Assembly: GCF_900114655.1 (NCBI RefSeq)
Contig: NZ_FOTT01000024.1
Location: forward strand, 1 to 49,557
Direction of reading: 5' to 3'
Source: Candidatus Frackibacter sp. WG13
Lineage (GTDB): Bacteria; Bacillota; Halanaerobiia; Halobacteroidales; Acetohalobiaceae
DNA length: 49,557 bases
In this document: positions 40,539 through 49,557 of the stretch, piece by piece
How the letters are laid out: every line of letters starts with the position of its first letter
Position numbering within the stretch: position 1 is the first letter of the stretch
Program-made: the position numbers and the translations under genes
Notes under the pieces: model-generated
The model's input: only the letters and a program-made list of their open reading frames with translations
Told to the model about the DNA's origin: nothing
Databases searched by the model: none

Positions 40539-41621
40539 ATGGGAATACATATTCAAAAAGGAGAAGAGGAAGAACTTATAGTTAAATTCAATTATACGTC
40601 AGGGAGGGTTAAAAAGATAAAGTTAATTGATGGCCGGCGTTGGGATCCAGAAGAGAAGTTTTGGACGATTCCTTATACGGAGGAAGCGGTTGAGCAACTA
40701 TTTAATATTTTTGAAGATGAGGAAATTTTGGTAGATGAATCACTTGATTTAGATATTTACAGAGGAAGTATAGGTGCACAGACTTGGAAGTCTAAGGTTT
40801 TAGGTGAAATGAAGGAAGAATTAAAATTACAAGGGTATAGCCCAAATACTATAGATGTATATTTAACACATATTAATCAGTTTATAAAGTTTCATAAGAA
40901 AAATCCTGAGACTTTACAACAAGAGGATGTACGTAAATATTTATTATTTTTATTAGAAGAAAAAGAGAGTTCTCATTCGTATGCAAATCAAGCATTGAGT
41001 TCACTTAAATTTTTATACAGTGAGGTATTACATAAGCAAGAGGTGGTTTTCAATCTTCCTAGACCAAAGAAAGAAAAGAAATTACCAGTTGTATTAAGTC
41101 AGCAAGAAGTTTCTAAAATATTAAATTCTATAGACAATTATAAACATCGTGCAATATTATTTTTGACTTATTCAGCGGGATTACGTGTAAGTGAGGTTGT
41201 GGGGTTGAAGATAAATGATATTGATAGTGACCGCATGTTAATTCGGGTAAGGCAAGGTAAAGGCAGAAAGGATCGATATTCTATTCTTTCAGAGGCAGCA
41301 CTTAAAGCGTTGAGAGAATATGCAAAAAGATATAATTTAGCTAAATGGCTTTTTCCAGGAGGGAAGAAAGGGACTCATTTAACAGAACGAAGTGTGCAAA
41401 GAGTTTTTAAAAAAGCATGTAAAAAGGCTAATATAGAAAAAGATGTTTCGATTCATTCTTTTAGACATTCTTTTGCTACTCATTTACTTGAGAAAGGAGT
41501 GGATTTAAGATATATTCAGGAATTACTTGGACATAAAAGCTCGAAGACTACGGAGATATATACGCATGTCAGTAAGAAAAAACTTAATAATATAAAAAGC
41601 CCGTTAGATGATTTGGTCTAA
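40539..41621 (+). CDS. Tyrosine recombinase/integrase with extra N-terminal domain
   Basis: The 360-residue protein has all catalytic residues of tyrosine recombinases: Arg216, Lys241, His306, Arg309, His332 and the nucleophile Tyr341. Residues 83-168 form the SAM-like core-binding domain. Residues 10-62 are an extra domain with the pattern KFNY...VKKIKLIDGRRWDPEEKFW, reminiscent of HARP-like annealing-helicase domains. Features recalling IntI are QFIKFHKKNPETL, PRPKKEKKLPVVLS and the terminal IKSPLDDL. However, the segment from GKG to HxxR is about 65 residues, far shorter than in IntI1, so the IntI-specific insertion is absent. It starts at ATG 40539 behind AAGGAAGG. Confidence 0.9.
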   Translation: MGIHIQKGEEEELIVKFNYTSGRVKKIKLIDGRRWDPEEKFWTIPYTEEAVEQLFNIFEDEEILVDESLDLDIYRGSIGAQTWKSKVLGEMKEELKLQGYSPNTIDVYLTHINQFIKFHKKNPETLQQEDVRKYLLFLLEEKESSHSYANQALSSLKFLYSEVLHKQEVVFNLPRPKKEKKLPVVLSQQEVSKILNSIDNYKHRAILFLTYSAGLRVSEVVGLKINDIDSDRMLIRVRQGKGRKDRYSILSEAALKALREYAKRYNLAKWLFPGGKKGTHLTERSVQRVFKKACKKANIEKDVSIHSFRHSFATHLLEKGVDLRYIQELLGHKSSKTTEIYTHVSKKKLNNIKSPLDDLV

Positions 41622-41653
41622 GCAAATGAGAATAAAGGGTAATTTAGATAAGA

Positions 41654-41679
41654 TATTACCGACGCTAGTGTCGGTAATA
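41654..41679. other. Perfect hairpin downstream of the integrase gene
   Basis: TATTACCGAC and its complement enclose a 6-base loop. No T tract follows, so it is a poor terminator. It may be an integrase accessory site or an mRNA-end structure. Confidence 0.55.
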
Positions 41680-41694
41680 AATTGAAATAAGTAT

Positions 41695-41730
41695 GTTATA
41701 TGACATTCGTTAAGATTCAGTTATATGACA
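41695..41730 (+). other. Candidate attI with direct repeats
   Basis: Two copies of GTTATATGACA (41695-41705 and 41720-41730) flank CGTTAAG, whose GTTA core (41709-41712) resembles the GTTA of the three attC-like sites. Position, core and flanking direct repeats fit an attI recombination site. This is inference from layout. Confidence 0.4.
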
Positions 41731-41775
41731 GATGGCACAAGATACTATTACATTAAAAATTCAAGGGGGAAAAAC

Positions 41776-42579
41776 ATGTTTTATCATATTTTAATTTCTA
41801 CAGAAGAAACAGATGAAGTATATGAAATTGATCACGAGGACTTAAATTATATTAAAGAAAATATGGCAAAACCGTATCTTCAAAACAAAGATTTTCAAGT
41901 AGATGGATATTTTATTGAGCCATCAAAAGTTAAAAGAATGATAATCACTACCACAGGAAAAGCATCTAATTATCTACGAGAAGCTAAACAAAGTCAAGTA
42001 TCACCAGGTGTTCTTTATGTTTATAGTAGAAAAGAATGTGTTTTTGAAATAGATGATTATAAAGAGGATATTACAAGAGAAGTATTTGAAGAAATTAAAG
42101 AAAATATAACAAAAAATGAAGAAAAAACATTAAAAAAAAGCAATGATGATAGTGCTGATAGTAATGAAGATACAACTATTTTTTTGGCTTATAGTTATAG
42201 AGAAGATGATGATGAATTTGTTTCTGGATTTAAAGAGTTGCTCGAGAATAAGGGTTATAAAGTAATTGATGGAAAAGCAGATAGATTGGGTTCAATATCT
42301 GATGCAATTATTGAAAAAATTCAAATTTCAGATATAGCAGTTATTGTTATGACAAAAAGAGATAAAAAAGAGAATGGAAAATTTACAACAGCGGCTTGGT
42401 TATTAGAAGAGAAAGGGGCAGCAATTGCATTTGATAAAGATGTTGCAATGTTTGTTGAAGAAGGAATAGATGAAACAGATATTGGTGGTTTACAAGGAGA
42501 TGCTCAAAGATTTCATTTTACAAGAAATAATTTTTTAAAAGTTGTTATGAATTTTGTAAAAATACTTGAAGTAGAATAG
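41776..42579 (+). CDS. TIR-like domain protein (cassette 1)
   Basis: The product (267 residues) has an unrecognised N-terminal domain (residues 1-110), an acidic Lys/Asn/Asp linker (110-132) and a C-terminal TIR-like domain from about 133. That domain starts TTIFLAYSYREDDD and continues LENKGYKVIDG, ADRLGSISDAIIEKIQISDIAVIVMT and AAWLLEEKGAAIAF. It resembles predicted nucleotide-binding TIR-like proteins, some of which are NAD-degrading antiphage effectors. Glu211 or Glu212 would be the candidate catalytic residue. An earlier in-frame ATG (41725) exists, but AAGGGGG sits just before 41776. Very high A+T and Lys content set it apart from the core genes. Function is inferred. Confidence 0.7.
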   Translation: MFYHILISTEETDEVYEIDHEDLNYIKENMAKPYLQNKDFQVDGYFIEPSKVKRMIITTTGKASNYLREAKQSQVSPGVLYVYSRKECVFEIDDYKEDITREVFEEIKENITKNEEKTLKKSNDDSADSNEDTTIFLAYSYREDDDEFVSGFKELLENKGYKVIDGKADRLGSISDAIIEKIQISDIAVIVMTKRDKKENGKFTTAAWLLEEKGAAIAFDKDVAMFVEEGIDETDIGGLQGDAQRFHFTRNNFLKVVMNFVKILEVE

Positions 42580-42652
42580 ATAGATAAATAAATTATAAAA
42601 AAGAGGTTTTAATCTAATTGAAATGTAATTAAAAAATTGGAGGAAGATATTA

Positions 42653-43300
42653 ATGTCTAAGAAAATTGGTAGAAATGACCGTTGTCCTTGTGGAAGTGGT
42701 AGAAAATATAAAAAGTGTTGTATAAACAAGTTTGTTACTAATAAATTTATTCAATGGGAAATTAATGCCAGAGATATTTTAATTAGTGAACCAAAGAACG
42801 ATGATATTGTCAAAATATTTTTTAATGTTCTAGATATTATAGACAGAAGAGATTGGAAAGGTGCATGTCATGCAACATGTGCAGTCTTATATGTTTTATT
42901 TAGTGAGATAGGATTAAAACCAACTCTTTGTTTAGGTGAGGTTAAATATAGTAACATTGTTTTTGACCATTCTTGGATAGAAATATCTAATAATGTTTAT
43001 GATGCTGCAATATTTAAAACTATTCATGGGGATATGTTATTTTCTCCTATAATTAATGGAGTATCTGTTGATACTAAGCAACCACCCAAAGCAGAGTATG
43101 GTATAGTATCTGGACAAGCTATTAGTGCTTATGCAAAAAAAATTAAAAATACTTCTTTTGAAAAATATATGAGTAATTATCCAGAAAGGAAAAATGGACT
43201 TTGGGATTTTGTTAAAATAATCGCAAAAAAGATTTCGCTTGATGTGAATATTCAAGAATTAAAAAGTAAGTATTCTAATGTTAAATGGTCAGATAAATAG
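42653..43300 (+). CDS. SEC-C motif protein with cysteine protease/transglutaminase-like domain (cassette 1)
   Basis: The protein has 215 residues. Residues 5-23 form a SEC-C zinc motif, [18 protein letters not shown], as at the SecA C-terminus. Residues about 68-120 carry [20 protein letters not shown] and VYDAAI. This Cys72/Cys76...His106...Asp117 order resembles the catalytic triad of transglutaminase-like or papain-like proteins. It might modify or cleave a target or its TIR-like neighbour. No attC lies between the two genes, so they travel as one cassette. GGAGGAAG precedes the ATG. The function is not known. Confidence 0.65.
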
Positions 43301-43361
43301 TTTTTTATTGTCAATAGAAAAATAGTAGCAGTAACTTTAACATGGGGGAGTGCCATCCATC

Positions 43362-43492
43362 ATATAACAGCACCTTAGCGACATCCCAGTTATGAGCATA
43401 AATGAAAGTTAGGCTGACTTATGTGAGATTTAGAGGTTTATCTGAGACTAGGATGGTTAGCGGGGACGTCGCGAAGCTGCGGGACGTTAGAC
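43362..43492 (+). other. attC-like site 1 (end of cassette 1)
   Basis: The left arm is ATATAACA then GCACCTTAGCGACATCCC. The right arm is GGGGACGTCGCGAAGCTGC, then GGGAC, then the core GTTAGAC (43486-43492). Reversed, the right arm reads GCAGCTTCGCGACGTCCC, matching the left arm with few mismatches. The left spacer is one base and the right spacer five. About 80 bases of variable centre separate the arms. Confidence 0.75.
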
Positions 43493-43533
43493 GACATACT
43501 ATGTTAGTTAATTTATATGGAGGGTAAAAACTA

Positions 43534-43917
43534 ATGAGCATTAATAAAAACGATAACTATTTGAAAAAAGAAATCTACAAAACAGTATCAAAATTAACTA
43601 AAGAACATTTAGATAAAACAGGTAAATCTCAAACTCAATTATCAAATGAGATAAATGTAGTTAGATCTTATATAAGCAATATTATAAATGAACATACTTT
43701 CTCGATTGCAAGTTTTACGTTACAAAAATTAATGAATGAAATGAATATTCCAATATATAGAATTTTTGAAAATTTAGACTTATCAAATTTTGAAAAAGAT
43801 GATTATTATTCTTTATTTAATAGAGCATATCAAAATAATATAATGCCTAAAGATTTAGAAAATGCTATATATTTATTTAAAACTTTGAATTTAAATGAGG
43901 TTTCTTTAGATGAGTAA
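43534..43917 (+). CDS. Small helix-turn-helix protein (cassette 2)
   Basis: The 127-residue protein contains an Xre/Cro-type helix-turn-helix at about residues 30-70 (KSQTQLSNEINVVRSYISNIINEHTF style, with NIP-IYRIF following). It overlaps the HTH-HNH gene by 8 bases (GATGAGTAA), so the two are translationally coupled. It is probably the cassette regulator, controlling the adjacent nuclease or SIR2-like gene. ATATGGAGGG precedes the ATG, 48 bases after the predicted cassette boundary. Confidence 0.72.
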   Translation: MSINKNDNYLKKEIYKTVSKLTKEHLDKTGKSQTQLSNEINVVRSYISNIINEHTFSIASFTLQKLMNEMNIPIYRIFENLDLSNFEKDDYYSLFNRAYQNNIMPKDLENAIYLFKTLNLNEVSLDE

Positions 43918-44737
43918 AGAAAAAAAGATAACTTTAAATCATAGAGGAGAGGTTCATAAAGACCAAAGGCAAGAATGGGAGAATAAATTAGGAAAGTTCA
44001 TAAAATATTTTAGAGAAAAAAATGAATTTTCTTTAAAAGAAGTTGTTGATAAATTTGAATTCAATATTAGTCGTGAAGCAATATCAAAATATGAACATGC
44101 TAGCTCAGGAATAGGATTAGATAAACTTTTTGAGATAATGAGAGTTTTAAATATTAAACCACAATATTTAGAATTGTTAGGATATTCTCATTTACCTAGC
44201 AAACTAAAAAAAAATAATATATCAATGAAACAATTGAAAGTACTTATAGAATTAGTTAAAGAAAATACTTCTTTAACTAATTTTAAAAAAAGATATATTG
44301 AAAAGGTTAATGAACATAATCAACATACTAAATATTATATTGAAGATAAAAAAACAGAGATAAATATAAGAAGTGGCCATACTCAGTTTGCAGAGAGAAT
44401 TAAAGAAAATTACAATTATGAATGTGCTATTTGTGGAATTAATACAAAAGAAATTTTAATTTGTTCTCATATTATTCCTTGGAGTAAAGACAAAGAAAAA
44501 AGAATTGATGAAAGTAATGCTATTTGTTTATGTGCTTTACACGATAAGTTATTTGATAAAGGATATATAACTATCAACAATAATTATGAAATTAAATTAT
44601 CCTCTTTAATAAAAAAAGATAAGAAATTGTATAAAATATTAAGAGAGATAAAAGGAGAAACAATAAAAAAGCCTTCCAAAGGAAAACCCAATAAAGATTA
44701 TTTAAAATATCATAGAGATAATATATTCAAAAATTAA
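43910..44737 (+). CDS. HTH-HNH endonuclease (cassette 2)
   Basis: This 275-residue protein has an N-terminal Xre-type HTH (about residues 27-85), a helical linker and a C-terminal HNH nuclease of the HNH_2 type found in restriction-like enzymes. Visible residues are Cys172 and Cys175 (ECAICG), SHIIPWS with His187, Asn203 in DESNAICLCALHDKLFD, and His211. The paired HTH and HNH suggest a self-regulated nuclease similar to restriction or abortive-infection systems. No methyltransferase is present in the cassette. It is coupled to the preceding HTH gene. Confidence 0.82.
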   Translation: MSKEKKITLNHRGEVHKDQRQEWENKLGKFIKYFREKNEFSLKEVVDKFEFNISREAISKYEHASSGIGLDKLFEIMRVLNIKPQYLELLGYSHLPSKLKKNNISMKQLKVLIELVKENTSLTNFKKRYIEKVNEHNQHTKYYIEDKKTEINIRSGHTQFAERIKENYNYECAICGINTKEILICSHIIPWSKDKEKRIDESNAICLCALHDKLFDKGYITINNNYEIKLSSLIKKDKKLYKILREIKGETIKKPSKGKPNKDYLKYHRDNIFKN

Positions 44738-44865
44738 TAATAAAAAAAGGTAATTCAAACTAAACTATGAAATTTAATAATTTTGAAAATAAAAGATTAA
44801 TTTTATTTATTAGACATAAAAAATGTGTAATAAATAGGGAGGTGGGATTTTAATAGGATTTTGCA

Positions 44866-44895
44866 CTTGTTATACGCTTTTCTATTAAACATAAA
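44866..44895 (+). other. Possible degenerate cassette junction
   Basis: In the 160-base gap between the HNH and SIR2-like genes, GTTATACGC resembles the GTTAGACGA core of attC 1, and an AATAG...CTATT pair flanks it. No paired arm is present. It may be the scar of a fusion between two former cassettes; this is weak evidence. Confidence 0.2.
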
Positions 44896-44897
44896 TC

Positions 44898-45941
44898 ATG
44901 AAAAAAGAAGATTATATTGAGTTTGAAAAAATGATGAAGAACAGACCTCATTTAGTAATATTAGGAGCTGGTGCTAGTGTTGCAACGATATTAAATGGTG
45001 ATGCTAATGGTAGACAAATATCTGTTATGGATGGTTTTATCGATAAGTTAAATATGAAGAATTTAATTGAGGAAGTTGAAATTAATACAGATAGCGATAA
45101 TTTAGAAGATATTTATTCAGAATTATATGAACGAGATGATTGTAAAGAGGTTTTAGAAACTCTGGAAAGTAGGATATATGATTATCTTTTACAATTTGAA
45201 ATTCCATCAGAACCAACGATTTATGATTATCTAATTCTGTCACTTAGAAAAAAAGATGTAATTGCAACATTTAATTGGGATCCTTTATTATTACAAGCAT
45301 ATAAGAGAGTAAGTAGGATTACTAATGAATTACCAGAATTATTATTTCTTCATGGTAACGTCTATGTTGGTGTCTGTCATGAACACAAACGTGGTGGTTT
45401 TATAGGAAATCGCTGTCCAATATGTGGAGATTTATTTGAGAAAACTAAATTATTATTTCCAGTAAAAAATAAAGATTATGATAGTGACTTGCTTATTAAA
45501 GATCATTGGAATGCAATAAGATATTATATGGAAAAAGCTTTTGTAGTAACTATTTTTGGATATAGTGCTCCTAAAACTGATAAAGTTGCTATTGATTTAT
45601 TAAAAAATTCATGGGGAGAAAAAGAGAAAAGAAATTTTGAAGAAATAGAAATTATTGATATTAAAGATGAAAAAGAATTGGTTGAAACATGGAATGATTT
45701 TATTCATACTCATCATTATCAAGTTTGTAATTCTTTTTTTGATTCAATTATTGCACAGTTTCCAAGACGTTCATGTGAAGCAATATTTGATAGATTTTTT
45801 AATCTTAAATGGCTTGATGGTAGAAAAGGATTAAAAAATGATATGAATTTTGAAGATTTAAATGATTATTTTGATAAGATTTTACATGATGAAAGAATAG
45901 ACCAAAAAATATTAACTACTTTTGGAATAGTAGATGATTAA
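44898..45941 (+). CDS. SIR2-like domain protein (cassette 2)
   Basis: The 347-residue product resembles SIR2-family proteins found in antiphage systems. HLVILGAGAS (GAGAS at 23-27) matches the NAD-binding loop, TFNWDPLL (Asn126, Asp128) the conserved Asn-Asp pair, LFLHGNV the catalytic histidine (His152), and FGYSAPKTDKVAID the C-terminal nucleotide-site segment. A Cys/His zinc ribbon (Cys160, Cys173, Cys176) is inserted after LHG, as in sirtuins. NAD degradation after infection is the likely activity but is inferred. The ATG at 44898 has no good ribosome site; GGGAGGTG lies about 50 bases upstream, so the start is uncertain. Confidence 0.72.
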   Translation: MKKEDYIEFEKMMKNRPHLVILGAGASVATILNGDANGRQISVMDGFIDKLNMKNLIEEVEINTDSDNLEDIYSELYERDDCKEVLETLESRIYDYLLQFEIPSEPTIYDYLILSLRKKDVIATFNWDPLLLQAYKRVSRITNELPELLFLHGNVYVGVCHEHKRGGFIGNRCPICGDLFEKTKLLFPVKNKDYDSDLLIKDHWNAIRYYMEKAFVVTIFGYSAPKTDKVAIDLLKNSWGEKEKRNFEEIEIIDIKDEKELVETWNDFIHTHHYQVCNSFFDSIIAQFPRRSCEAIFDRFFNLKWLDGRKGLKNDMNFEDLNDYFDKILHDERIDQKILTTFGIVDD

Positions 45942-45975
45942 GAATGAATTTGAAAATTAAAATATGTCGTACGTC

Positions 45976-46103
45976 GTCTAACATCGCGTGGTCGACACCT
46001 ATCTTAATGCATAAAAGAGAGTTTTGTTTTATTTATGTAAATTTTATTTTTGTTTGAGGAATATGAGTTTTCGTGGGCGTCGGCAACCCGAGGAACGTTA
46101 GCC
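45976..46103 (+). other. attC-like site 2 (end of cassette 2)
   Basis: The left core is GTCTAAC (45976-45982), followed by one base and TCGCGTGGTCGACACC. On the right, GGCGTCGGCAACCCGA is followed by GGAAC and the core GTTAGCC (46097-46103). The reversed right arm TCGGGTTGCCGACGCC pairs with the left arm. The left core fits the classical RYYYAAC consensus perfectly. Confidence 0.8.
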
Positions 46104-46142
46104 GACATTTTATGTTGAGTTTAGTGCATAGGAGGAATCAAT

Positions 46143-47174
46143 GTGGAGATTTATAATTATGAAGAAAAAGGGCATACATCTGAAGTGATTTTATCTAATG
46201 AGAAAGAAACTATTAATCTTTCTCAAGGGATGTTGCAAAGTGCTATATTACATTATAAAGCCAGATTAATTATGTTATCTGGTAAAATACTGGATTATGA
46301 AAAAGAGACATTAAAATTAAATAGATGGGCAAGGGAAACTTCTGAATTGAAAACTCATTTAAAGAACTTGCACTTAAAAATAGTTAAAAATGATTGTGTT
46401 GTAAGAGAAATTAAAATGAATAATATGTATGTTTTGGACTATACAGAAGAGTATAATAGCCTTACATATACAGTGGTTTTATTACAGCATAATAGAAGAA
46501 GTGAATATACATGCGTACCAATCGATTCAAGGTATGGCGGGGGACGACTTTTGATTCAGCCCAAAGATGATAGTACAAGAAAAATTTTGGATAATATTAG
46601 ATTAGGATTAAATGGAGCGGGAGGTCTTGCAGTAACCAAGACCGGAATAGATGGATTAAGATGGTTATGGACTGAGGGTTTATTAGAATTTAGCGCGGCA
46701 AGAAGCGTTTCATTTTTGGCAAGATTTAATTTATATTATTTAGCAACTCATGGAGTAAACTTGATAATTTCTACAAGTGCAGATATATATTTTAAATCAA
46801 TTGGATATGAAGAGGGAGTAGGAAAGGTAAACCCATTAAGAGATATTTATAAAGAATTAGGTAAAATTGCTGGGGTTACTGTTTCTAAAATGTTTGACGA
46901 ATATAAATATAATGAAGAATTATGGGAAGAGAGAGGGGAAAACTTATATTATGCTCTTGATTTAACTGGAGCAGCAACAGGTTTATTTAAAACTACTAAA
47001 GAAATAATTCACACAGTTAAATATGGTGAAAAGGTCGCATATAAAATTTATTATAGTAAAGGTTTTGTTAGAGGAATTAGAAAATTAAGAAAGTCATATA
47101 TGTTAATATCTAGTGGGGCAGTCGCAAGAGATGTAAATCCAGTAGTAAAGGACGCTATGGAGTTGATGGATTAG
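46143..47174 (+). CDS. Unrecognised protein, possible toxin (cassette 3)
   Basis: I do not recognise this 343-residue protein with certainty. Residues 1-95 are helical and charged. Residues 100-145 are beta-rich, with a YGGGRLLIQP segment. Residues 150-215 are hydrophobic and Gly/Ala-rich. The THGVNLIISTSADIYFKSIGYEEG...NPLRDIYKELG pattern recalls DUF4225-type domains, which are found in bacterial effector or toxin proteins. With a small membrane protein encoded directly downstream, a toxin/immunity pair is plausible. It starts with GTG at 46143 behind TAGGAGG. The overlapping ATG at 46141 leads only to a 15-codon frame. Confidence 0.5.
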   Translation: MEIYNYEEKGHTSEVILSNEKETINLSQGMLQSAILHYKARLIMLSGKILDYEKETLKLNRWARETSELKTHLKNLHLKIVKNDCVVREIKMNNMYVLDYTEEYNSLTYTVVLLQHNRRSEYTCVPIDSRYGGGRLLIQPKDDSTRKILDNIRLGLNGAGGLAVTKTGIDGLRWLWTEGLLEFSAARSVSFLARFNLYYLATHGVNLIISTSADIYFKSIGYEEGVGKVNPLRDIYKELGKIAGVTVSKMFDEYKYNEELWEERGENLYYALDLTGAATGLFKTTKEIIHTVKYGEKVAYKIYYSKGFVRGIRKLRKSYMLISSGAVARDVNPVVKDAMELMD

Positions 47175-47187
47175 AGAGGTGAAAAAT

Positions 47188-47610
47188 ATGAAAAAACAAA
47201 GTAAGTTTAAGTTTGTTTTTAAATTGTATTTAATTAGAGGAATTTTATCTGGGATTTTAGCGTATATATATATTGGAATAAAAGATGGTGGATTATTTAC
47301 AGTATCGTATTATGGATTAGGCAATATTGCAGTAGTTTTAATGTTTTCGTTACCATTATTTTTTCTAGTAACTTTTATGATCTTCGTGTTAGAAAATACA
47401 ATAATAACAAGTTTTAGAGAAGGTCTTTCTTCAATAATAATTTTTATATTATGTATAAGTTTATTGTTATTAAGAAGTTATTTTACAGGAAGATTGGTAA
47501 GAATTTTACCTATATTATCCTTTTTTATAGGTTTTGCAACATTGGCAATAATTTTAGAAAGATTATTTGGTTTGCAACATAATGGTAATTATTATTTTAA
47601 AAGTAAATAA
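47188..47610 (+). CDS. Small membrane protein, possible immunity protein (cassette 3)
   Basis: The 140-residue product has four predicted hydrophobic segments (about residues 14-30, 43-66, 78-94 and 105-125) and a basic N-terminus. It matches no family I can name. It starts 13 bases after the preceding stop codon, with GAGAGGTG as ribosome site; an in-frame GTG at 47179 is an alternative start. A membrane immunity protein protecting against the neighbouring product would explain the pairing, but this is inference. Confidence 0.6.
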   Translation: MKKQSKFKFVFKLYLIRGILSGILAYIYIGIKDGGLFTVSYYGLGNIAVVLMFSLPLFFLVTFMIFVLENTIITSFREGLSSIIIFILCISLLLLRSYFTGRLVRILPILSFFIGFATLAIILERLFGLQHNGNYYFKSK

Positions 47611-47634
47611 TGAGTAATTAATACATAAAACATC

Positions 47635-47786
47635 GGCTAACATGGCATTTACGACACTAAGCAAAGTGCATAATAGTTGTCTTGGTAATGACTTATGCAA
47701 GATTGCTCGAGTTATATAATTGTAATTGCTGTGTTAAATTGAAATTGGACGAGCTTTGATGAGCGTCGTAAACACCAGGAACGTTA
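47635..47786 (+). other. attC-like site 3, interrupted by a group II intron
   Basis: The left core is GGCTAAC (47635-47641), then one base, then TGGCATTTACGACACTAAG. On the right, GAGCGTCGTAAACACCA is followed by GGAAC and GTTA (47783-47786). The reversed right arm TGGTGTTTACGACGCTC pairs almost fully with the left. The core stops at GTTA, where the intron begins. The remaining bases of the site should lie beyond the intron, outside this window. Confidence 0.78.
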
Positions 47787-48203
47787 GTACGCCAAGCAAG
47801 TTTGATATTTCTGGCAAGGTGAAGCCGTCTACTAGAGTAGACTTAGGATAATATCGATTATGAGAGATTACAACAGAACCAACGTAAATAGCTCAATGGT
47901 AAGAGCTTAAAAGATCGCCGACAGAAGGTCCACCTTTCACTACCTCACTGTCTTTGGTAAAGTGAAGGTCGTTCAATGGTTTGAGTAATATTTTAATTAG
48001 TCAATATATCTGATAACAGTCTTTGCTAGGTAAGGACTAACCATCCACCTATATCGAGTGTTGCGCTTTGAATTGGTAACAATTCAGGTGAAGTGTACAC
48101 AGAGAACTTTTTAGGCCAGAGGGAAGACCGTAATTCCTGAAGCATATTGAGCCCCGTTAGTATCGGGTCCTGGAAACAGGAGAAGAGCAGATGACGACGT
48201 AGT

Positions 48204-48210
48204 TAACGTT
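48204..48210 (+). other. Putative EBS1 of the group II intron
   Basis: TAACGTT is the exact complement of the last seven exon bases (47780-47786), the predicted IBS1. Confidence 0.6.
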
Positions 48211-48450
48211 GCGGAAGTCAATACGAAGGAATTGTAAAAGGTGAGATTCCGGAGGGTCTGTCGGGGTCAGAGAACCTGGCATGAAGAGAAAGAAATATCA
48301 GGAATTTGGGAGGTCCTACAGGTTCCAATGATTATTGGAAGGTCTATCCAATCGAAAAAGAGGACGACCTGCGACTTGTAGGAAGTCGGATTAACTCATA
48401 GTACTCTGAGACCAGGAGAGCTGGTTACATGGGGAAGGGGTGACAGAAAT

Positions 48451-49557
48451 ATGTACTCATCAAAGGAAACACTAACCGGACGCGCAAGGCCGGAGCAATT
48501 AGTGCAAACCTCACTGAAGGGAATAGCAAAGAAAGCAAAACGACTCAAAAAGTATAGATTTCGTGACCTATATAGGCAGATAAACCATAGTGCTTTAAGT
48601 AAAGCTTGGGATAACATAAATAAGAAAGCAGCCGCAGGAGTAGATAAAATAACTGCCAAAGAATTTGCTAAAAACTTAAAAGATAATATTGAAAGTATAT
48701 TAGATAGCTTAATAGGTAAGCGATATCATGCAAAGATGGTACGTAGAGTGAATATAGAAAAGGACAATGGGAAACTTCGTCCACTGGGGATTCCAGTAGT
48801 TGCCGATAAAATAGTACAAAGAGCAACAGCCGATATATTAGAAGCAATTTATGAACAAGATTTTATAGATAATAGCTATGGATATAGACCAAACCGTGAT
48901 TCAAAAGTAGCAATAAAATCTTTAACAAAAGAATTACAGTTTGGCAAATACAGTTACATAGTTGAAGCAGATATCAAAGGATTTTTCGATAACATAGACC
49001 ATGATTGGTTAATAGAAATGTTAAAACAAAGAGTTAATGATAAAGAATTTATAAGGCTAATCAAGAAATGGTTAAAAGCTGGGATATTAAAAGAAGATGG
49101 ACAAGTCATTCATCCAGTTACAGGAACTCCTCAAGGTGGCATAATAAGTCCCATTCTAGCAAATATCTATCTACACTACGTATTAGATATCTGGTTTATA
49201 GGAAAAGTTAAGAAAGAATGTGCAGGTGAAGCCCATCTATGTCGTTACGCTGATGACTTTGTTTGTGCTTTTAGGTACAAAAGAGATGCAGAACGATTTT
49301 ATCACATGTTACAAAAGAGACTAAATAAATTTGGTCTAGCACTTTCATTGGAAAAGACAAATATAATCAGTTTCTCTAGATTCCGTAAATATGAAAATAA
49401 TAGCTTTGAATTTCTAGGGTTCGAGATGCGTTGGGGAACTTCAAGGAAAGGTAAGGACATAATTAAAAGGAGAACTTCACGCAAGAAACTAAGAAAATCA
49501 CTTAAGAATTTTACTAAGTGGTGCAAAGAAAATAGGAATAAGCGACTCAGAAGTTTG
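48451..49557 (+). CDS. ltrA: Group II intron reverse transcriptase/maturase (3' end outside window)
   Basis: The frame is open from ATG 48451 to the window end, giving 369 residues without a stop. It contains the RT domains in order: GKLRPLGIPVVADKIVQRA (RT2a-2), SYGYRPNRDS, VEADIKGFFDNIDHD with the first catalytic Asp (173), GTPQGGIISPILANIYLHYVLD, and the RYADDF catalytic box (YADD 266-269), followed by SLEKTNIISF and FEFLGFEM and the start of the thumb/maturase X domain. It performs splicing assistance and target-primed reverse transcription. Ribosome site GGGGAAGGGGTG lies ahead of the ATG. Whether a C-terminal endonuclease domain exists cannot be seen. Confidence 0.93.
   Translation, partial: MYSSKETLTGRARPEQLVQTSLKGIAKKAKRLKKYRFRDLYRQINHSALSKAWDNINKKAAAGVDKITAKEFAKNLKDNIESILDSLIGKRYHAKMVRRVNIEKDNGKLRPLGIPVVADKIVQRATADILEAIYEQDFIDNSYGYRPNRDSKVAIKSLTKELQFGKYSYIVEADIKGFFDNIDHDWLIEMLKQRVNDKEFIRLIKKWLKAGILKEDGQVIHPVTGTPQGGIISPILANIYLHYVLDIWFIGKVKKECAGEAHLCRYADDFVCAFRYKRDAERFYHMLQKRLNKFGLALSLEKTNIISFSRFRKYENNSFEFLGFEMRWGTSRKGKDIIKRRTSRKKLRKSLKNFTKWCKENRNKRLRSL

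Follow-up and report, generated by a model that had tools for sequence, protein, structure and literature searches.

Does a group II intron that interrupts the recombination core of an integron cassette choose that core as its target, or has it reached it by some other route? The question is raised by the 49,557-nt stretch of DNA analysed here (the window), which corresponds to contig C26 in a genome of 2.77 Mb and whose end falls within such an intron (features in Table 1; a vertical bar marks an insertion point). An earlier note on the window had placed the intron start right after the GTTA of the third attC-like site, and thus inside its core. This position can be read directly: the first intron bases, GTACGCC, run from 47787, right behind GTTA at 47783-47786, and the interrupted attC site 3 has the boxes R'' ATCGGCTAAC, L'' TTTACGACAC, L' GCGTCGTAAA and R' GTTA.

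Table 1. Positions of the features discussed, in the window unless another locus is named
Feature	Position	Strand	Basis or remark
Tyrosine recombinase, presumed integron integrase	40539..41621	+	Profile matches, structure comparison
Putative attI region	41651..41712	+	Stem-loop TTACCGACGCTAGTGTCGGTAA, then core GTTATATGACAT; sequence reading
attC site 1, empty	43359..43497	+	R'' ATCATATAAC ... R' GTTAGACGACAT
attC site 2, empty	45973..46108	+	R'' GTCGTCTAAC ... R' GTTAGCCGACAT
attC site 3, 5' part to GTTA (approximate)	47632..47786	+	5' exon of the intron
IBS1 ACGTTA in attC site 3	47781-47786	+	Sequence
Group II intron (lineage A), 5' 1771 nt	47787..49557	+	Remainder at end of C17, minus strand
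EBS1 TAACGT	48204..48209	+	Pairs with IBS1 ACGTTA; EBS1 hairpin expected within RF02005 match
Reverse transcriptase/maturase (IEP), N-terminal 369 aa of about 447	48451..49557	+	TIGR04416, 348 bits, over cut-off
Lineage B intron, L016	8120-10285	minus	
Lineage B intron, L017	7402-8169		
Lineage B introns, L069-L081			

The rest of the intron lies elsewhere in the assembly. The window genome (G000) holds two copies, of which the 5' halves close C26 and C2, with the same 5' end in both, and the 3' halves close C17 and C8. The 5' and 3' halves overlap by 483 nt with one mismatch, the assembly having broken at the repeat, and the joined intron measures 2112 nt and ends in CCGTGAC. Since the two copies are identical in the overlap, sequence alone leaves the pairing of the halves undecided; array context favours joining C26 to C17, both being cassette arrays in the right orientation to be joined. 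C17 supplies the 3' exon TCTGAAATAGCC, giving the joined site GTTA|TCTGAA, and C8 the 3' exon GACGACA, which is followed directly by another group II intron. A GTTA-NNN-GA(A/C) core is restored under either pairing, and the conclusion is the same. The R'' of the next attC, TTCAGATAAC, is the exact reverse complement of GTTATCTGAA, so that the splice junction must be GTTA|T. The 3' exon TCTGAAAT from the window genome thus fills out the recombination core, and the placement of the intron inside an attC site split after GTTA is borne out by the exon from C17. The same note had predicted a 3' exon close to GTTA(G)(A/C)C followed by GACAT; the core is indeed completed, but with other bases, a GTTATCTGAAAT variant that recurs at the neighbouring empty site (GTTATCTGACAT). 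Its proposal that the same intron be sought elsewhere in the genome is answered by the second copy on C2, after the GTTA of an attI-like site.

The array itself shares several properties with integrons. The presumed integrase matches the profile NF040815 at 253 bits, over the cut-off, and TIGR02249 at 246 bits, below the cut-off of 265. Its closest solved structure is IntI4 (2A3V), residues 188-239 of which face only 13 residues in the window protein. The spacing from K box to RH box is 59-60 aa in nine relatives (L082-L090), and the IntI-specific I2 insert is absent from the window integrase and from 9/9 of these relatives. Such relatives are present in 24 of the 59 genomes of the window genome's class that made up our search set. 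An integron with true attC cassettes but without I2 would bear on integron origins. Two arms, folding as a bottom-strand hairpin, are common to the three window sites and to many sites in relatives. In a cassette, the R'' at the end should complement the R' at the start of the same cassette; the two matched at 6/7 positions or better in 22 of 25 cassettes, whereas permutation gave a mean of 4.0 and a maximum of 11 in 20,000. All six cassettes split by an intron passed, the window copy included (GTTA|TCTGAA with TTCAGATAAC), and the cassette is thus continuous across the intron. The hairpins, together with cassettes whose end R'' complements their own R', support reading the array as an integron. 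Its cargo (41725-47610) looks anti-phage, with a TIR-like protein matching PDC-S35/ThsB models, an HTH-HNH protein resembling phosphorothioate-DNA restriction enzymes, and a weak AbiH match.

The intron in attC site 3, and its relatives in the same register (lineage A), have the ribozyme core, domains V and VI, and an intron-encoded protein (IEP) with reverse transcriptase (RT) and maturase that define group II introns. Positions 48016-48276 match Rfam RF02005 (group-II-D1D4-6) at 126.8 bits (E 1e-35). The full-length IEP carries RVT_1 and GIIM, and an endonuclease domain was not found in the lineage A IEP. In the fold of domains V and VI, the predicted AGC triad and the bulge with an A argue against class IIC. 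Against solved structures, the lineage A RT scores 160 bits with LtrA, 149 with the group II RT 7uim, 141 with TeI4h and 133 with GsI-IIC, so that class C structures are not the nearest in a comparison that ranks structure bit scores and uses no reference class tree. A delta-delta' pairing is unlikely in lineage A, because EBS1 is preceded on its 5' side by a T, which would be no partner for the usual T at +1. EBS2 and EBS3 were not identified in lineage A; TCCTGG/CCAGGA, considered as EBS2-IBS2 in the window copy, was dropped, being a GNRA stem that fails in relatives.

Base pairing with the exon helps to explain the choice of core. The internal TAACGTT (48204-48210), already recognised from the window as complementary to the exon AACGTTA (47780-47786), falls within the expected EBS1 hairpin and is conserved. 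EBS1 pairs with the attC R' box at 6/6 positions (TAACGT/ACGTTA), and at 7/7 in the window copy. Its loop, TTAACGT, is invariant across lineage A, whereas the stem beneath it varies (for example, CGTAG/TTGCG versus CATG/CATG). In an outgroup intron (G265), EBS1 is AACGGT and its own exon ACCGTT; since this EBS1 differs and fits its own different exon, the pairing covaries. G265 (RT 59%) was itself considered as a member of the att-inserting lineage and was placed outside it, although its available 5' flank is just 84 nt long.

Lineage A was read at 14 sites in eight genomes, one of them outside the class: two sites in the window genome, five in G002, one each in G023, G032, G045, G027 and G030 (a 40-nt fossil), and two in G258, the genome outside the class (RT 66% identical). 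The fifth G002 copy (L105) adjoins its integrase. The 5' junction is GTTA| in 14/14 readable sites and ACGTTA| in 12/14, and the 3' exon reads NNNGA(A/C) in 10 of 11 copies. At least 11 of the 14 sites are, by their sequence, recognisable attC sites. In an anchored two-arm attC test against a background of 866 GTTA sites, eight lineage A sites lay at or near the top 1%, and empty attC sites were among the top-scoring background sites. Both arms are visible on reading in G045, G027 and the second G258 site (G258b); the test scored the first two weakly and missed the third, whose R'' is GAAC. A generic local inverted-repeat score was weak and did not separate attC from the AT-rich background. 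In the C11 site of G002 the left arm is gone. The C2 site of the window genome is only attI-like, with a stem-loop TTACCGACGTTAGTGTCGGTAA and core as beside the window integrase, and no integrase was seen adjoining it. That every attC of this type might serve as a landing site, as had been suggested, gains support from this distribution. Two candidates were set aside: the G030 locus (L059) as a full copy, since it diverges past 40 nt, and a Thiohalocapsa relative (L018) as an attC insertion, since it is a 5'-truncated fragment at a site not recognisable as att. G258 also holds a related group II intron (RT 46%; L126 at about 9935, reverse complement) that starts within an attC left arm.

These results are consistent with a lineage, with a putatively IIB-like ribozyme and an endonuclease-less IEP, that is very probably specialised on integron recombination sites through its fixed EBS1. 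The intron RNA would read the top strand of the R' core, placing EBS1 TAACGT on ACGTTA, and would reverse splice between GTTA and the cassette-specific NNNGA(C/A)AT, in cassette orientation. Since the IEP is without an endonuclease, replication-coupled reverse transcription probably completes the insertion; that replication helps the copying of endonuclease-less introns is established (PMC4424553). Transcribed with the array, the intron would be spliced from the cassette mRNA, sparing cassette expression. The integron integrase crosses over at G^TTA. Because this crossover is 3 nt upstream of the insertion, the intron would form the front end of the downstream cassette and could move together with it; we would expect it to ride along with cassettes rather than simply to block them. 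An occupied site keeps only the GTTA of its R box, the outer pairs being replaced, and excision may be lower as a result. The locus makes it possible to ask whether an inserted intron immobilises cassettes or is carried along by them, and it provides a system, open to experiment, in which one mobile element sits inside the recombination site of another.

Two further intron lineages found in the same class of bacteria use the same R' box. Lineage B introns begin GTGCGACCAGCC, match Rfam D1D4-7/Intron_gpII and have a CL-like IEP (494 bits to TeI4h). They insert in the register GTTANNNGACA|T, exactly 7 nt past GTTA or GTTG in 12 of 13 junctions. An apparent exception, L074, was discarded as such, since it follows the 3' end of a lineage C intron and is in register; L080 is the remaining one. 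The EBS1 of lineage B tracks its cassette-specific target (TTTCGTA/TATGAAA, TGTCGTA/GACGACA, GGGCATA/TATGTCC). On C8 a single att site contains both, the lineage B intron following immediately on the lineage A intron; that lineage B copy is without a long ORF, and in L016 the lineage B RT is frameshifted near its PQGG motif (about 9040-8960, minus strand). Lineage C (RF02003), with an IEP nearest GsI-IIC (169 bits), is present as three copies in G003 (L104), at GTT|A of attC sites. Its 3' exons AGGTGAAAT and AGCCGACAT fit the R'' boxes that follow, and a candidate EBS1, AACGTC, pairs with GACGTT. All three lineages lie in cassette orientation. Their IEPs are only 28-33% identical (A versus B, 33%), which makes them separate lineages in three registers of one 12-bp core. 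On balance we favour the wider reading that each is specialised on the crossover core of an integron family whose integrase lacks I2 (GTT|A, GTTA|N and GTTANNNGACA|T), using the opposite strand to IIC-attC introns, and that they thereby take the front position in cassettes, travel with them and even nest in one att site.

The best-surviving alternative, although an improbable one, is that the intron entered once and was then copied by the integrase as part of a cassette, with no attC targeting of its own. An intron 3 nt downstream of the crossover would move with its cassette, and related integrases are common to many genomes of the class; part of the spread could indeed be due to cassette movement instead of repeated retrohoming. 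However, the attC sequences upstream of the copies are distinct, which argues for repeated insertion but is no proof of it, and the introns themselves differ, sharing about 70-93% DNA identity with the window copy. The GTTA junction is constant across unrelated cassettes and matched by a fixed EBS1, and both the attI-like C2 site and the cassette-specific EBS1 changes of lineage B require targeting.

We consider it very unlikely that the intron is instead a member of the known IIC-attC lineage on an unusual strand. Those introns (for example, S.ma.I2 and UHB.F1) are the group II introns already established as inserting into attC; lineage A resembles them in its endonuclease-less IEP and its insertion into attC at several loci. 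They use the attC bottom strand at TTGT/T, in the orientation opposite to the cassettes, with a class C IEP and an IBS1 of 3-4 bp (PMC7923331; PMC4424553); that they differ in strand and position had been stated in the earlier note, correctly. In contrast, lineage A is on the top strand at GTTA|NNNGAC, in cassette orientation (intron, cassette genes and integrase all on the + strand of the window), with a 6-7 bp IBS1 (7/7 at GTTA|TCTGAA) and non-class-C ribozyme features, among them an AGC triad in place of the CGC of IIC. Its RT scores higher with LtrA (160 bits) than with GsI-IIC (133 bits), and class C structures are not its nearest. PMC7923331 cites one case of an IIC intron inserted in the top strand of attC, in Enterobacter cloacae and in cassette orientation; as described in that citation, it is a single case of class IIC and not an attC-specialised lineage. 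Less likely still is an ordinary intron with a 6-nt target that met attC by chance or survived in tolerated intergenic sites: ACGTTA is short and survivors would be enriched in intergenic attC, but just 3 of the 12 ACGTTA words in the window lie in attC sites, yet 14/14 insertions lie behind GTTA, nearly all in recognisable att sites and with a recurring GA(A/C) 3' exon, which excludes chance. The same 3/12 count means that six bases cannot by themselves explain the exclusive use of att sites, and we infer added specificity from structure, IEP contacts or more exon pairing.

Among known systems, the searchable literature yielded no lineage that recurs at a defined core site and has an EBS1 pairing to explain it. 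Three earlier cases anticipate parts of the result: the Enterobacter intron just mentioned, H.ha.F1/F2 and UHB.I2. The non-IIC introns H.ha.F1/F2, class E fragments from a CALIN of Halorhodospira halochloris, are endonuclease-less and 5'-truncated, so that their insertion site is not readable (PMC7923331); like lineage A, they lie in cassette arrays of a halophile. UHB.I2, of group IIB1/CL1, comes from a cassette array of a soda lake; it is reported in cassette orientation immediately after attC, and is represented by one metagenomic copy with boundaries UUGCG..GU and no conserved exon found (PMC7923331). It shares the cassette orientation with the window intron, itself putatively IIB-like, and lineage B is CL-like as well. 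Lineage A differs from UHB.I2 in its IEP (TeI4h, only 141 bits), its defined and recurrent site and its conserved EBS1. Introns without class C features thus appear to home to the integron core, whose top strand offers a defined target in each attC of this kind, and lineage A looks like a parasite of integron recombination sites that has specialised by a different route from that of the known IIC-attC introns.
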